Source: Acidisarcina polymorpha
GTDB taxonomy: Bacteria; Acidobacteriota; Terriglobia; Terriglobales; Acidobacteriaceae
Direction of reading: 5' to 3'
Length of the DNA: 64,000 bases
Assembly (NCBI RefSeq): GCF_003330725.1
Contig: NZ_CP030840.1
Location: 7,000,116-7,064,115 of the forward strand
Shown: positions 26,998 through 37,500 of the stretch, piece by piece
How positions within the stretch are numbered: the first letter of the stretch is position 1
Layout of the letters: each line of letters opens with the position of its first letter
Notes under the pieces: model-generated
The model's input: the letters and a program-made list of their open reading frames with translations, nothing else
Told to the model about the DNA's origin: nothing
Database searches by the model: none
Program-made: the position numbers and the translations under genes

Positions 26998-28251
26998 TTA
27001 CATGAAGCGGCCATTCCACTGCGAAGGTCCGGGGCTTCCGTTCCCGGAACCGCTCGCCGGCGCCTGATTTGGCGGACTGGCTGGCGCTTGTGTTGGCGGA
27101 TTCGTCGGCGCCTGATTCGGCGGGCTGGCTGGCTTGCTCCCATCCATCCCCGGAGGAAATTGGACCTTGTCCAACTGCGGAACGTTCTGACTTACCGGCA
27201 AAGTCTCCCCCGGCTTTTTGAGGGTTGGCGGCGCCGAGACGGCAGACTCGTGACCGCGCGAATCTGCGCTGGTGTCGCCTAGCTTGACCTCACGAACATT
27301 GGGGTTTGGAGCAGTCGACCAGTAATCGCCCATCTCATCCGTGCTGCGGATAATCGGCGGCTGGCCGAGCTTCGCATCTTCGACGCGAATGACCCGGTTC
27401 CCGTTGAAGCGCACAAACTCAACATCCTTGGGCGGCTCCCCGTAGATCCATTCTTCGAACGGCATATCGCCGTCGCGCTCCCTGCTCTTGCTGTCGGGAT
27501 GGCCTAAGGCGTGAATCACCATCTCCTGGTTCATCCCTACGAGGACATGATGAGCCAGGATCGCTTCCCTCAGTTTCGGCGGGAGCGTGTCCGTGTATGC
27601 CTGGATGGGGGTCTTTAATTTAAAGTCGACCAAAGGCTGCAGCAGCTCTTTCACTTGAGTGCCCGTCATCTCGGGGACGAACTTCTCGAACTGCAAAGTG
27701 ATCCGCACACCGGTCGGCTGTTGACCGTCGTCTCGAGCGAGCGGAATCATCATTCCCCCTGCCCCCACCGAGATATGCCGCAGAATCCGATGCTTCTGGT
27801 CCGGGCCGCCATTCAGTTCGAAAACAATCTTGTCCTGCACAAACTTGACGTCGGTAATCATCACCCGGTCAGCCGCCTGGAAGGCGACACCGTTGTGCTC
27901 AAGCGCTTTGACATACTCCGTTCCATTCGGGTTCGCTGCACCATTCGCCACCAGTAATATGCCCTTGCTGCCGCGCGGAAGCGGTCGCATCGCGAAGCCT
28001 TGCTCCGCCTCGAGCACCCGCACGAGTTCTAGCTTGGTCCGCTGCAGCACCGGCTGGCTGCTCAGTTCCACGTGAGTGCGCTTGATGTCGGTGTAGCGGC
28101 TTTCGATCTTATCGGTTTCTACCGTAAATACCTGGGCCGCGGCGAACTGGTAGGCCATCAACCCAGCACAGCAGCCGGAGAGCATCTGCACCGCTAGGCG
28201 GATCCGTCTCTGCGAAATGTCTCGTTTTGCTCTCGAAACGATCCCGGTCAT
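26998..28251 (-). CDS. Conserved secreted protein with proline-rich tail
   Basis: This protein of about 417 residues is not a family I can name. The start at 28251 has GAGGT upstream and is followed by a basic, then hydrophobic segment ending at AAAQ, i.e. a signal peptide. The central part (about residues 45-330) includes RPLPRGSKGILLVANGA and a segment MVIHALGHPDSKSRERDGD followed by EEWIYGEPPKDVEFVRF. This last part resembles a small-protein-A/OmlA-like fold seen in outer-membrane lipoproteins. The C-terminus has low-complexity repeats PPNQAP and PPTQAPA (about 385-415). The cellular role is unknown; a periplasmic location is likely. Confidence 0.65.
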   Translation of the reverse strand: MTGIVSRAKRDISQRRIRLAVQMLSGCCAGLMAYQFAAAQVFTVETDKIESRYTDIKRTHVELSSQPVLQRTKLELVRVLEAEQGFAMRPLPRGSKGILLVANGAANPNGTEYVKALEHNGVAFQAADRVMITDVKFVQDKIVFELNGGPDQKHRILRHISVGAGGMMIPLARDDGQQPTGVRITLQFEKFVPEMTGTQVKELLQPLVDFKLKTPIQAYTDTLPPKLREAILAHHVLVGMNQEMVIHALGHPDSKSRERDGDMPFEEWIYGEPPKDVEFVRFNGNRVIRVEDAKLGQPPIIRSTDEMGDYWSTAPNPNVREVKLGDTSADSRGHESAVSAPPTLKKPGETLPVSQNVPQLDKVQFPPGMDGSKPASPPNQAPTNPPTQAPASPPNQAPASGSGNGSPGPSQWNGRFM

Positions 28252-28469
28252 AAGGACCTCGCTTCTTTGATCGCGGACGACCAATAGCGTACTACCGGTA
28301 GGATGGCGCGATTCTGCGCTCTTGGCAAGCATTGTCGACAGAAAACTTTACTTCCTCTTTGGACGCCGCGAACAAGCCTAGACGAACCGGCTGATATGGA
28401 ACTTCTCGATTTGAAACTTCTCCATGTGCCAAAACCGCATCCTATTCTTTCGAAAAGGGAAGAGGCTTC

Positions 28470-30075: not shown

Positions 30076-30840
30076 CTATAGACGGCGTTCGGCCTCACGG
30101 GCAGCATCATAGATCTGCTCGAACGAGTCGACTGCGTAGAGCACCTTCTGCATTTCAGAGACAAGAAACTTCTGGTTCAGCACCTGATCCAGGTTAAAAT
30201 CCCGGATCTCTGGCCCACTCCCATTCAACGCCCGCAGGACGTGCTGAGATTCTCCTGGCGAAGAGATCAAACCACTTCCGTAGAGTTTGATTTGGCCGCC
30301 CTGGCGAATGACGCCAAACTCGACCGTAAACCAGAAGAGCCTCCCCATGCGTTCCAATGCATCCTTGTCATGCAAGGCCGCGCACACCTTTCCATACTGT
30401 TGCAGAAAATCGGCGAAGACCGGATGAGCATGCATGGGAACGTGTCCGAAGACATCGTGAAAAATATCGGGCTGGGGGATGTATTCGAGCGACTCACGAC
30501 CGCGTAGCCAGGTGGTCGTGGGAAATCGCCGGCCAGCCAGCATCTCGAAGAAGGCCGCCGGAGGCAGAAATCCACTCACCGGTGTGGAATTCCATCCGGT
30601 TCGAGGCTCCAGGCGCTGGCTGATCTCGGTAAGGTTTGGAATCGAGTCCTCCTGCAAACCGATTGCTTCGAAGCCGGCGAGATACTCCGCACAAGCGTGC
30701 TCGCGAAGCTCAGGCATGCGGCGGCGGACGAGTTCGGCCCAGATCCCATGCTGCTCTGCCGTATACGCGGCCCAGTCCTGCTGTACCAGGTAGGAACTAG
30801 CTGCTTCCGCTTCCGGCTTTCCCATCGCAGTTATCATCAT
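30076..30840 (-). CDS. phhA: Phenylalanine 4-monooxygenase
   Basis: This 254-residue, single-domain bacterial aromatic amino acid hydroxylase converts phenylalanine to tyrosine with tetrahydropterin and O2. The iron ligands are present: the two histidines of PDIFHDVFGH near residue 140 and the glutamate of FWFTVEFG near 186. PRTGWNSTPVSGFLP (pterin and substrate side) is also typical. ATGs at 30840 and 30837 are adjacent. The second has the better spacing from GGAG. No regulatory ACT domain is present, as usual for bacteria. It is divergent from an HPPD homologue, the pairing expected for aromatic amino acid catabolism. Confidence 0.93.
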   Translation of the reverse strand: MMITAMGKPEAEAASSYLVQQDWAAYTAEQHGIWAELVRRRMPELREHACAEYLAGFEAIGLQEDSIPNLTEISQRLEPRTGWNSTPVSGFLPPAAFFEMLAGRRFPTTTWLRGRESLEYIPQPDIFHDVFGHVPMHAHPVFADFLQQYGKVCAALHDKDALERMGRLFWFTVEFGVIRQGGQIKLYGSGLISSPGESQHVLRALNGSGPEIRDFNLDQVLNQKFLVSEMQKVLYAVDSFEQIYDAAREAERRL

Positions 30841-31261
30841 GTCTCCAATACGGCTGCTAAGGCTGCCAGCAGATCCACCTACGACCGCTCTTCGTGCGAG
30901 CGGGGGAACCTGAAAAACCTGGATGCGGGTGCCTATAGAAAACGGACAGACGCCCTCCCAATCATAGAGCCGAACCCCTATCAGACGCCTGCTCCAGGGA
31001 AACCGTTACCAAGGCGGCTGGCCTCGCCTCCCGATCTCGGAAGCCTGGCTCATTCGCTCTCGCAGAGTTGAGTCCGCCAGGGCGAAATCTCTCAGTGGTG
31101 CCCACAGTACTCTTGCTGGTTCTGATACCGCTGCTGATAGTGACCTTGGGCTCTGGCCAACTCTCCATAAACAGGTATATCTTTGGCAATCGTTGCGGCA
31201 TTCCGGGTTTCATGGGAGTCCGACAACGTCTTTCATCAGCATCGAAATTGGAGTAACTCTC
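30841..31261. other. Divergent intergenic region phhA / HPPD homologue
   Basis: These 421 bases lie between divergent starts. Open frames exist on both strands but lack ribosome binding sites. One plus-strand frame from 31068 has a hydrophobic stretch but only a TTG start. I see no clear promoter or riboswitch. Confidence 0.4.
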
Positions 31262-32386
31262 ATGTCGTCTATGCTTTTGCATCCGGAAGTCCAAACCCCT
31301 AAGGGCTTTCTCCCCATCACTGGTACGGATTACATCGAGTTGTATGTCGGGAATGCCCGCCAATCCGCATACTTCTACCGCGCCGCCCTCGGCATGTGTC
31401 TGGTCGCCTGGGCGGGGCCGGAAACCGGCCTCCATGACCGCGCTTCTTACGTTCTGCAGCAAGGCAATATACGCCTGGTTCTTACCACGCCACTCCGCCC
31501 CGATGGGGGAATGGCTGAACACATTCGCCGTCATGGCGACGGGGTACGCGACATCGCCATGTGCGTCACCGATGCGAAACTCGCCTGGCGGGAAGCCACC
31601 AAACGCGGTGCCCGGAGCGTTCACGAGTGTCATACGCTTGAAGACCATTGCGGTCGTGTCAAAGTCGCCTCGGTTGCGGCCTATGGCGACACTATCCATA
31701 CGTTCGTGGAGCGGGAAAACTACACTGGGCCATTTCTCCCCGGCTATGAATCGACCGACGAAGATCATGCGGCGCGTCCGGTCGGCCTAACCCGAATCGA
31801 CCATATTTCCGGGAATGTGGGCTGGAATGAGCTCCATCGGTGGGTCGATTTCTACCGCGACACCCTCGGTTTTTCGTTATATCCGAAGTCCGGAGAGGCC
31901 GGGCCGGCGGGATACCTTTCGTTCAAGGCACAAGTTGTCAGCAGCGCAGAAGGAAGGATCCTCTTTCCTCTTAAAGAACCGGCGGAGGGGCGGGATCGCT
32001 CCCGGATCGAGCAATATCTCGAGTCCTATCACGGTCCGGGAGTCGAGAACATCGCCCTGGCAACCGGGGACATGCTCGGCACCGTGGCGAAATTGCGCCA
32101 GCAGGGGGTGCAATTCAGCAGTGTCCCGTCGAGCTACTATCGACAGCTCCGGGCAAGAGTCGGCAACCTCGACGAGCCCCTGGAAGAGCTCGAAAGATTG
32201 GGGATCCTGGTCGATCGGGACGACGATGGATACTTGCTGCAAGCCTTCACTCGACCCGTTGAGGATCGTCCGACACTTTTCTTTCAGATCATTCAGCGGA
32301 AGGGCAGCCGCGGCTTCGGAGAAGGAAACCACAAAGCTCTCGCTGAGGCTATCGCGGCAGAAAAGCGATTTCTCCGCTATCGCTAG
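31262..32386 (+). CDS. HPPD-family protein lacking two of three iron ligands
   Basis: By overall sequence this 374-residue protein is a 4-hydroxyphenylpyruvate dioxygenase homologue. It has two vicinal-oxygen-chelate halves, the IDHISGNV start of the second half, FYRDTLGF, and the C-terminal IIQRKGSRGFGEGN signature. In characterised HPPD the Fe(II) ligands are a His in DH.(T/S).N, a His in G(V/I)QH(I/V)A and the Glu in FFE.IQR. Here the first is H181, but the second position is N263 (GVENIAL, codon AAC) and the third is Q342 (FFQIIQR, codon CAG). Canonical Fe-dependent activity is therefore doubtful. The start at 31262 has GGAG eight bases upstream. It is divergent from phhA, which would supply tyrosine. 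No homogentisate dioxygenase is in the window. Confidence 0.85.
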   Translation: MSSMLLHPEVQTPKGFLPITGTDYIELYVGNARQSAYFYRAALGMCLVAWAGPETGLHDRASYVLQQGNIRLVLTTPLRPDGGMAEHIRRHGDGVRDIAMCVTDAKLAWREATKRGARSVHECHTLEDHCGRVKVASVAAYGDTIHTFVERENYTGPFLPGYESTDEDHAARPVGLTRIDHISGNVGWNELHRWVDFYRDTLGFSLYPKSGEAGPAGYLSFKAQVVSSAEGRILFPLKEPAEGRDRSRIEQYLESYHGPGVENIALATGDMLGTVAKLRQQGVQFSSVPSSYYRQLRARVGNLDEPLEELERLGILVDRDDDGYLLQAFTRPVEDRPTLFFQIIQRKGSRGFGEGNHKALAEAIAAEKRFLRYR

Positions 32387-34959: not shown

Positions 34960-37500
34960 ATGACTTTGAAAACTTTCTTCCGCCTGGTCATCCTCTCTAG
35001 CGCGCTCACGACGCTTGTCCGCGCCCAGACCGCTCCATTCGATCTCGCTGGTCCGGAGGTCGATGTTCGGGTAGAGCGTGCCGGCAAGACACTGCCCATT
35101 TCTGCTGTCCCCAATCTGCTTGCCGGCGACCGCATCTGGATCCATCCCGATTTACCGGACACTCAGTCCGCCCGCTATCTGCTGGTAGTCGCATTCCTCC
35201 GTGGAGCTACAAATCCACCTCCCGAGAACTGGTTTACCCGCGCCGAGACCTGGAACAAGAAGATACGCGACGAGGGCATCTTTGTTGTCGTGCCGCCGGA
35301 GGCCGAACAAGCGCTCATCTTCCTGGCGCCTGAGACCGGCGGAGACTATTCGACGCTTCGCAACGCGGTGCGTGCTCGCCCTGGCGCTTTCGTCCGTGCA
35401 TCCCAGGACCTCAACGTTGCCAGCCTGGATCGAAAACGGCTCGAGACGTACCTGCAGGCTATACGCGAGGCGGTTCTCAAAGAGCCCGACCAGCTTGAGG
35501 CCCGCTCGAAACTACTCGCTCGAAGTCTCAATATCAAAGTCGATCCCACCTGCTTTGACAAACCTGCTAACGAACAAGCCACCTGCCTTACGGCGCACAC
35601 CGATCAGATGGTGCTGACAGACGCCCATAGTCAGTCGATGGTGTCGACCGTCACCTCAGGCGCCACAGCGGACTTGATGACTCAACTCACCGCGACGCCC
35701 ACCGCGGGAGCCGGCTATTTCAGCCCTTATGTAGGCGCCATCATCGACATCGCTCGCATCCTCGATAATCTGCACACCGCCGAGTTTCAATACATTCCGG
35801 CGCTCTCTCTGCCGCAGCGGGACACGCTCAATCTCAAACTGAACAACCCGCCTTCCTTCAAAAATCCCAAGTCGGTGATCGTGATCGCCTTGCCTCCGGT
35901 GGAAGGACCACAAATACCTCCACTGCGAGCGGTCAATCCGAAGCAGACCTACTGTGTAGAGAAACCGGAGAGCGTCTTGAACGTGGAAGGCGCACCACTC
36001 GTCTTCGCGACCGATTACGCGCACGATCTTTCGATCCATATCCCTGAAAAATCCGGGAAAGAGACGATCGTGCCGATCACCGCCGATCCGAAGCTTGGCG
36101 GGTTTGTTCTGGACCCGAAGGCCCTTAGCGACAACAAGCTTGATCAAGAGGCCGTAGGCTATATGCGTGGCATGTGGGGGTTTCAACCCTTCGATGGTCC
36201 CAGCTTCCGATTGGCCAGCGCCAGACCGGAACAGTGGCATGTAGGCCCGTCCGACGAAAGCGCATTGATCACTGGACGCACCGATACTCTCCATCTCCAT
36301 GCGGACAGTTCTTCTTGTGTGTCAAATGTGACTGTGAAAGACGAGAAGGGAGAGAAGATCGCCGCTGCATGGAATATGAATGCGCCCGACGACCTCGAAG
36401 TTCAGCCGGCGCTTCAGAACACGCCTCCCGGAAAGATTACAGTCGCAGTTACCCAGTTCGGCGACAGTACTCCCGACGAGCTTCACCTCCAGGCCTACTC
36501 TGAAGCCGGACACCTGAGCAACTTCACACTCTACGCCGGTGATCAGCAAGGCGTTCTCCGCGGAACGCGTCTCGACCAGGTGGCTGGTCTCGACTTGAAC
36601 GGGACCCGCTTTGCTCCCGGAGCGTTGTCGAGGGCCGAGGAAGAGGACCAGCTGCAGATGTCCTTGATGCCGCAGACCAAACCGGAAATGCCGCAGACCA
36701 AGCCGGACTTCCAACCCAGTCAAAAGATCGTGGCGAAGGTCATGCTCAAGGACGGCCGAACGCTCCCCCTCCCGATCACCGTCGCAACGCCTCGCCCGCA
36801 AGTTACGGTGATCAGCAAGAGCATCCAGCCTGCCTCGGGTTTGCAACCGCCACTGTTACAGAATTCGAACACGCCACAGCTACAGATACATTTGACCGCC
36901 GCTGACGAGCTCTCTCTAGATGGTCAGCTTTCTTTCTCTTTGAAAGCCGTAGTTCCCGATCATTTCCCGCGCACTGAATCGATCGAAGTCGCCTCCGAAG
37001 ACGAATCCCTTCGATTCACGCTGAGCTTAGCTAATGGCCGATTGGTCCTCGAGGATGCGAAGACGATCGTTGCGACTCTCGACCCGGAGAAGGATCTCGG
37101 AAGCTCGGCCTTCGGGCCGCTGAAGTTCCGGCCCATCGATGCCGACGGCGCAGCCGGCGATTGGCAGCCCCTGGCGCAATTGGTGCGACTCCCGGTTCTC
37201 AGTCAGCTCAAGTGTGCGAAGACTCCGGACAGGCAGTGCACGCTGACCGGCTCGAATCTCTTTCTGATCGATGCGATTGCCTCTGATCCGAACTTTGCCA
37301 ACAGCGTCACGGTTCCAGAGGGCTATGCCGACTTGACGCTGACCGTTCCCCACCCCGACGCCAGCAGGACGCTCTATCTGAAACTGCGGGATGATCCTCA
37401 AGCGGTGAACACGGCGCAAGTGGCCGGACCGGCTTTAGACGTCTCTCAGCAAAGTGCCGCCGTACCGGCCCCAGCGGCTACCGTTGGCACTAATCACTGA
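34960..37500 (+). CDS. Large secreted protein of unknown function
   Basis: This 846-residue protein has an N-terminal signal peptide (cleavage near LVRAQ, residue 23). The first 60 residues resemble a beta-rich domain (DVRVERAGKTLPI) followed by GDRIWIHPDLP. The middle is mixed alpha/beta with a few cysteines. The C-terminal half (from about 440) looks like tandem beta-sandwich domains (TDTLHLHADSSSCVSNVTV, then GKITVAVTQFG). A short duplicated peptide MPQTKPEMPQTKPDF lies near residue 570. I recognise no catalytic motif. It may be an envelope or capsule-associated protein. No operon partner is evident; the next gene is convergent. Confidence 0.7.
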   Translation: MTLKTFFRLVILSSALTTLVRAQTAPFDLAGPEVDVRVERAGKTLPISAVPNLLAGDRIWIHPDLPDTQSARYLLVVAFLRGATNPPPENWFTRAETWNKKIRDEGIFVVVPPEAEQALIFLAPETGGDYSTLRNAVRARPGAFVRASQDLNVASLDRKRLETYLQAIREAVLKEPDQLEARSKLLARSLNIKVDPTCFDKPANEQATCLTAHTDQMVLTDAHSQSMVSTVTSGATADLMTQLTATPTAGAGYFSPYVGAIIDIARILDNLHTAEFQYIPALSLPQRDTLNLKLNNPPSFKNPKSVIVIALPPVEGPQIPPLRAVNPKQTYCVEKPESVLNVEGAPLVFATDYAHDLSIHIPEKSGKETIVPITADPKLGGFVLDPKALSDNKLDQEAVGYMRGMWGFQPFDGPSFRLASARPEQWHVGPSDESALITGRTDTLHLHADSSSCVSNVTVKDEKGEKIAAAWNMNAPDDLEVQPALQNTPPGKITVAVTQFGDSTPDELHLQAYSEAGHLSNFTLYAGDQQGVLRGTRLDQVAGLDLNGTRFAPGALSRAEEEDQLQMSLMPQTKPEMPQTKPDFQPSQKIVAKVMLKDGRTLPLPITVATPRPQVTVISKSIQPASGLQPPLLQNSNTPQLQIHLTAADELSLDGQLSFSLKAVVPDHFPRTESIEVASEDESLRFTLSLANGRLVLEDAKTIVATLDPEKDLGSSAFGPLKFRPIDADGAAGDWQPLAQLVRLPVLSQLKCAKTPDRQCTLTGSNLFLIDAIASDPNFANSVTVPEGYADLTLTVPHPDASRTLYLKLRDDPQAVNTAQVAGPALDVSQQSAAVPAPAATVGTNH

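Follow-up and report, generated by a model that had tools for sequence, protein, structure and literature searches.

Catalytically dead orthologues of enzymes are an already known phenomenon. Bleomycin-binding-type members of the VOC fold are small one-domain dimers that act as metal-free binders and do not carry the catalytic metal triad. In 4-hydroxymandelate synthase, by comparison, the metal site is intact. This enzyme is an Fe(II) dioxygenase (PMC3720870). In the 4-hydroxyphenylpyruvate dioxygenase (HPPD) of Arabidopsis, the metal is held by His226, His308 and Glu394, and S267, N282, Q307 and Q293 form a network around the bound substrate. Loss of catalytic efficiency was about 12-, 160-, 99- and 3722-fold for the S267A, N282A, Q307A and Q293A variants, respectively (PMC6750108).

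An HPPD-like gene of the soil acidobacterium Acidisarcina polymorpha is described here. It is located in a window of 64,000 nucleotides, which is the whole stretch of DNA that was analysed.

An HPPD-fold gene in its ancestral place

The gene and its surroundings are organised as follows.

31262..32386, forward strand: HPPD-fold protein of 374 aa, recognised by family profile, structure model and ORF
31313..31741, forward strand: N-terminal VOC domain, residues 18-160, conserved, with 26 of 28 family-invariant residues kept
31787..32365, forward strand: C-terminal, apparently formerly catalytic, VOC domain, residues 176-368, with 27 of 85 family-invariant residues replaced
30076..30840, reverse strand: phenylalanine 4-hydroxylase (PAH, Biopterin_H), the divergently oriented neighbour, which is intact and evolves at a normal rate
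30841..31261, no strand: 421-bp intergenic region separating PAH from the divergent HPPD-like gene, without a sigma-70 consensus

The reading frame is open from the ATG at 31262 to the stop ending at 32386, and end-to-end alignment with relatives revealed no disabling stop, frameshift or large deletion in it. The protein scores 353 bits against the NCBI HPPD equivalog TIGR01263 and thus passes the curated cut-off of 277, so that the warning in the initial annotation that the gene is easily misannotated as hpd was justified. Solved HPPDs align with it from end to end (E 8.5e-96 for 1t47). The preservation of the fold, which had also been proposed, is supported by an AlphaFold2 model built from a 39-sequence alignment (pLDDT 84.7, pTM 0.86), in which the complete two-domain VOC fold is predicted and only a rewritten loop at 211-218 and the termini fall below pLDDT 50. 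The best solved match to this model is 1t47, the HPPD of S. avermitilis (Z 48.1, rmsd 1.8 over 350 residues, 46% identity).

A profile search of the 7.6-Mb A. polymorpha genome (G000) found this protein to be the sole HPPD above the cut-off. The other match is a fragment of 29.8 bits, and no canonical hpd was found elsewhere in the genome. A paralogue beside a canonical hpd is therefore ruled out, as the genome has no second HPPD above the cut-off. In several relatives, for example G374, G206, G452 and G508, PhoU and PAH adjoin hpd, and the same arrangement is present in A. polymorpha. The gene is the ancestral acidobacterial hpd orthologue in its original place, with PhoU - PAH - hpd synteny, and not an extra paralogue.

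The divergent phenylalanine hydroxylase is intact, as had been noted: none of its 39 invariant residues is changed and its identity to relatives is 70.8%, versus 71.1% among the relatives themselves. The corresponding values for HPPD are 61.9% and 78.0%. Accelerated evolution is thus specific to HPPD, while the neighbouring PAH is normal. Tyrosine synthesis has no obvious need of PAH, as the genome contains a gene of the prephenate dehydrogenase family. A search around the HPPD-like gene detected no consensus promoter or terminator, and the 421-bp intergenic region gave no sigma-70 consensus. Elsewhere in the window, two large proteins, of 846 aa (34960-37500) and 444 aa (26998-28332), matched no Pfam family at E 1e-4.

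Replacement of the active site

The following positions of the C-terminal domain were identified by column comparison, or for residues 207-223 by comparison with the family sequence. Arabidopsis numbers were assigned by motif and spacing, and the columns are consistent.

31802..31804, forward strand: H181 (Arabidopsis His226), the sole retained iron ligand, codon CAT
31880..31930, forward strand: rewritten pocket loop and strand, residues 207-223, family FDDKDISTEYSALMS versus KSGEAG-PAGYLSFKA here, ending in A223 (Arabidopsis Ser267), with low model confidence at 211-218
31973..31975, forward strand: K238 replacing Asn (Arabidopsis Asn282)
32003..32005, forward strand: R248 replacing Gln (Arabidopsis Gln293)
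32045..32050, forward strand: E262-N263 replacing Gln-His (Arabidopsis Gln307 and the iron ligand His308)
32285..32287, forward strand: Q342 replacing the iron-ligand Glu (Arabidopsis Glu394)
32330..32332, forward strand: H357 replacing Phe (Arabidopsis Phe424), the adjacent N356 (Asn423) being kept

The initial annotation had claimed that two of the three Fe(II) ligands are replaced and that H181 is the only one left, and both statements held. The codon of N263 is AAC (32048-32050), versus CAC or CAT in 69/69 canonical relatives, and that of Q342 is CAG (32285-32287), versus GAG or GAA in 69/69. The ligand motifs read GVENIAL and FFQIIQR, versus GVQHIAL and FFEIIER in solved HPPDs. Since the alignment to the solved HPPDs is free of gaps around both ligands, there is no register shift or offset of the ligand columns, and no substitute His or Glu occupies them in this alignment.

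The damage extends beyond the metal site. The equivalents of Arabidopsis H226, S267, N282, Q293, Q307, H308, Q379, F381, F392, E394, N423 and F424 are invariant in 69 canonical relatives of the same class, which named members place in Terriglobia (Acidobacteriota). In the HPPD-like protein these twelve positions read H, A, K, R, E, N, Q, F, F, Q, N and H, so that five residues besides the two ligands are replaced (A223, K238, R248, E262 and H357). None of the seven changes occurs in the 69 relatives. The protein consequently has neither the 2-His-1-Glu Fe(II) facial triad of HPPD, in which N263 and Q342 stand instead of His and Glu, nor the Ser-Asn-Gln-Gln substrate network, which has become A223, K238, R248 and E262. 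Taken together, the residues strongly imply a loss of HPPD activity. The view that the rest of the protein is not degraded was only half right: it applies to the N-terminal domain, with 2/28 family-invariant residues changed, but not to the C-terminal one, with 27/85 (Fisher p 0.011). The C-terminal invariants are changed at about the same rate as the other residues of that domain.

Used alone as query against named genomes, the protein gave no match. An alignment of it with a second rewritten protein did detect relatives, and all the newly detected ones proved canonical in the triad and the four-residue network. Among 80 named genomes from Acidobacteriota, Bacteroidota, Kapaibacteria, Gemmatimonadota, Verrucomicrobiota and others, 79 have an intact triad and an intact four-residue network, the exception being Acidobacteriaceae bacterium ZG23-2 (G212). 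No other case of N or Q at the two ligand columns was seen among the approximately 165 relatives that were read, and this exact active-site state is known from one genome only.

Loss of the homogentisate pathway

Homogentisate dioxygenase (hmgA) and fumarylacetoacetase are both absent from the A. polymorpha genome, which is 96.4% complete, and so is a distant version of hmgA that scores 70-80 bits in other members. Close relatives with a canonical HPPD carry both hmgA (about 700 bits) and fumarylacetoacetase (500-580 bits). In a sample of 398 Acidobacteriaceae genomes, HPPD was matched in 155, and hmgA as well in 145 of those. The remaining ten have no hmgA match, and the four of them that are near-complete and were read (G000, G212, G364 and G278) all have an atypical HPPD, namely two rewritten copies, an 80-aa remnant and a homologue of 38% identity. 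The other six are mostly incomplete assemblies: the HPPDs read in G428, G502 and G548 are canonical, and G527, G668 and G676 were left out of the reading (G676 is rated 95% complete and its match is a fragment). A few genomes of another family of the class have no hmgA match yet encode a canonical HPPD, which means either that the link is not universal or that an unrecognised dioxygenase is present there.

In G364, the remnant lies beside a PAH that is missing residues 120-219, the pair (L171:5729-6533) being next to a PhoU gene. This genome, which also has no hmgA, represents a true decay of hpd and PAH. The homologue of G278 (L187:7837-8886) has an intact metal triad together with M238 and I357 (Arabidopsis 282 and 424), and its genome contains no hmgA, PAH or fumarylacetoacetase. 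It is possibly a different oxo-acid dioxygenase. In G206 and G452 (L078:8859-10990 and L079:7701-9838), a canonical HPPD precedes a protein resembling fumarylacetoacetate hydrolase and a distantly hmgA-like one that scores about 70 bits. The latter has the appearance of an alternative homogentisate dioxygenase that is common in the class.

A second rewritten copy

The genome of ZG23-2 has no hmgA, and its HPPD-like gene (L045:3022-4116 / L094:6001-7095) is likewise a full ORF and an hpd orthologue in place. The two proteins are altered at many of the same C-terminal positions and have V183S, A220S, I328A and Q368K in common. In G212, 2/28 N-terminal and 39/85 C-terminal family-invariant residues are changed (Fisher p 0.0002). 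The invariant positions changed in both proteins number 20 (Fisher p 4e-5). However, the ZG23-2 protein keeps all three metal ligands and Q262, differs by P223, S238, H248, I340, D356 and S357 (the P, S, H, D and S corresponding to Arabidopsis 267, 282, 293, 423 and 424), is 54% identical to the A. polymorpha protein and comes from a genome without PAH. Its locus consists of PhoU, a luciferase-like monooxygenase, hpd and then a MAYSVKVEYADAR protein, as in the genus mate G508, with PAH gone.

A phylogenetic tree pairs both rewritten proteins with a support of 96/92, their terminal branches being 1.03 (A. polymorpha) and 2.06 (G212) versus a median of 0.11. When G212 was held with its own genus, the resulting tree was not rejected (AU p 0.456). 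A single old clade of both proteins is disfavoured on account of the two long branches, this AU result and the synteny of the G212 locus with that of a canonical genus mate. Because its genus mates are canonical, an independent origin of the G212 copy is probable, and two independent rewritings are the simpler account.

Selection on the rewritten gene

Differences from a canonical relative amount to 0.26, 0.18 and 0.61 at codon positions 1, 2 and 3, and the codon-position GC of the HPPD-like gene is normal. A branch-wide omega of 1 was rejected by a codon model (2dlnL 52, p 5e-13). Free single-omega fits were saturated, with synonymous time at its bound, and bounded two-phase models were used instead. 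When sites were divided into two classes, a relaxed-purifying second phase outperformed a neutral tail by 9-28 lnL units and gave a second-phase omega of 0.11-0.20 here and 0.17-0.31 in G212, values and comparison alike depending on the assumed branch times since synonymous sites are saturated on the branch. A neutral tail after normal evolution of realistic length would have been expected to produce 2.4-3.6 stops here and 4.4-5.3 in G212, while none is observed in either. Since the shift, purifying selection has weakened but not ceased.

Interpretation

The explanation that we favour, and hold to be somewhat more probable than its negation, is that this HPPD orthologue in its ancestral place lost its dioxygenase activity with the pathway and was kept, most plausibly as a metal-free ligand binder. 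Homogentisate dioxygenase and fumarylacetoacetase would have been lost first in the lineage. With the pathway gone, homogentisate would have become useless and the chemistry of HPPD could have been given up. Both the Fe(II) site (N263, Q342) and the network positioning 4-hydroxyphenylpyruvate (A223, K238, R248, E262) would then have been replaced, presumably with loss of iron and of homogentisate formation, while the fold and the open frame would have been retained under relaxed yet purifying selection. The product would be a non-catalytic, metal-free two-domain VOC protein accommodating a small molecule in the old pocket, which would be lined by the charged K238, R248, E262 and H357 beside the retained H181, Q327, F329, F340 and N356. 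The ligand may be guessed to be small and probably an anionic aromatic, perhaps an aromatic oxo-acid or an amino acid linked to the adjacent PAH. A broader proposal, put forward tentatively, is that hmgA loss in Acidobacteriaceae turned an in-place hpd at least twice into a retained non-HPPD protein, which in A. polymorpha would be either a metal-free binder or a new enzyme, no longer an oxygenase, whose charged pocket has been rebuilt. It would then be a natural pseudoenzyme of HPPD type whose origin goes back to pathway loss.

The main rival is a slow decay, in which the gene became functionless after hmgA loss, or its activity harmful, and has been drifting towards a pseudogene but is still free of stops and frameshifts. 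Such a course is possible because pathway loss predicts relaxation and because G364 shows its endpoint. The atypical HPPD genes of the near-complete hmgA-less genomes, among them the remnant beside an internally deleted PAH, agree with it, as do the long terminal branch and the replacement of C-terminal invariants at roughly the domain-average rate. Nevertheless, the full-length ORF has no stop where the neutral tail predicts several, neutral-tail models fit worse than relaxed purifying selection, 26 of the 28 N-terminal invariants are kept, the codon-position GC is normal and the predicted fold is intact, so that we regard decay as serious but rather unlikely. The original contention of selection on a different activity instead of simple decay is thereby upheld in part: the codon models speak for continued selection rather than free drift, but the loss of the downstream pathway makes relaxed selection a serious competitor. 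It is improbable, though conceivable, that the pocket was rebuilt for another reaction, either metal-free or with another metal site made, for example, of H181 with E262 and/or H357. Several polar or charged replacements (K238, R248, E262, H357) are gathered in one pocket, and the rewriting of the same positions in G212 with the triad kept, along with the shared changed invariants, suggests a common direction. Yet the two rewritten proteins share no conserved new motif beyond a handful of residues, and PAH, the only obvious functional partner, is missing from G212.

Asn and Gln are able to ligate metal weakly, and the family score lies above the cut-off, from which one might suppose that the protein remains an HPPD, or acts as some other Fe-dependent oxo-acid dioxygenase, with N and Q tolerated as ligands. 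We consider this very improbable, as four further residues important for catalysis in Arabidopsis HPPD are changed (PMC6750108) and the genome has no downstream pathway. Finally, a sequencing or assembly artefact could be suspected since N263 and Q342 are each one base away from the family codons. It is hardly credible given that the replacements at seven pocket residues are not all single-base changes, and that a protein divergence of about 35% is accompanied by an open frame and a normal codon bias.

Comparison with known systems

Neither a metal-free HPPD nor a report on a related strain was found in the literature searched, and a dead orthologue of HPPD type that is tied to hmgA loss and accompanied by another rewritten copy seems to be new. 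If the retention of a non-catalytic protein is true, the gene would be a natural case of an enzyme orthologue that outlived its pathway by shedding catalysis, and one family would offer a comparison set in which another rewritten copy and a genuine remnant stand beside canonical relatives. The gene is also a caution that the curated HPPD equivalog model labels proteins without the iron site as hpd, which matters for pathway reconstruction.

With HPPD itself (TIGR01263; 1t47), the protein shares the whole two-domain VOC fold, the family score and a PAH-adjacent position as in relatives, but two Fe ligands, all four network residues and Phe424 are replaced and the homogentisate pathway is absent from the genome. 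4-Hydroxymandelate synthase (2r5v) has the same fold (Z 44.6) and an HPPD ancestry, but its identity is 32% and its intact Fe(II) triad is not found here. In contrast to the two-domain protein of A. polymorpha, bleomycin-binding-type VOC proteins are small and single-domained; as far as their general description goes, they resemble it in having a VOC fold without the metal triad and in the mode of action proposed here.
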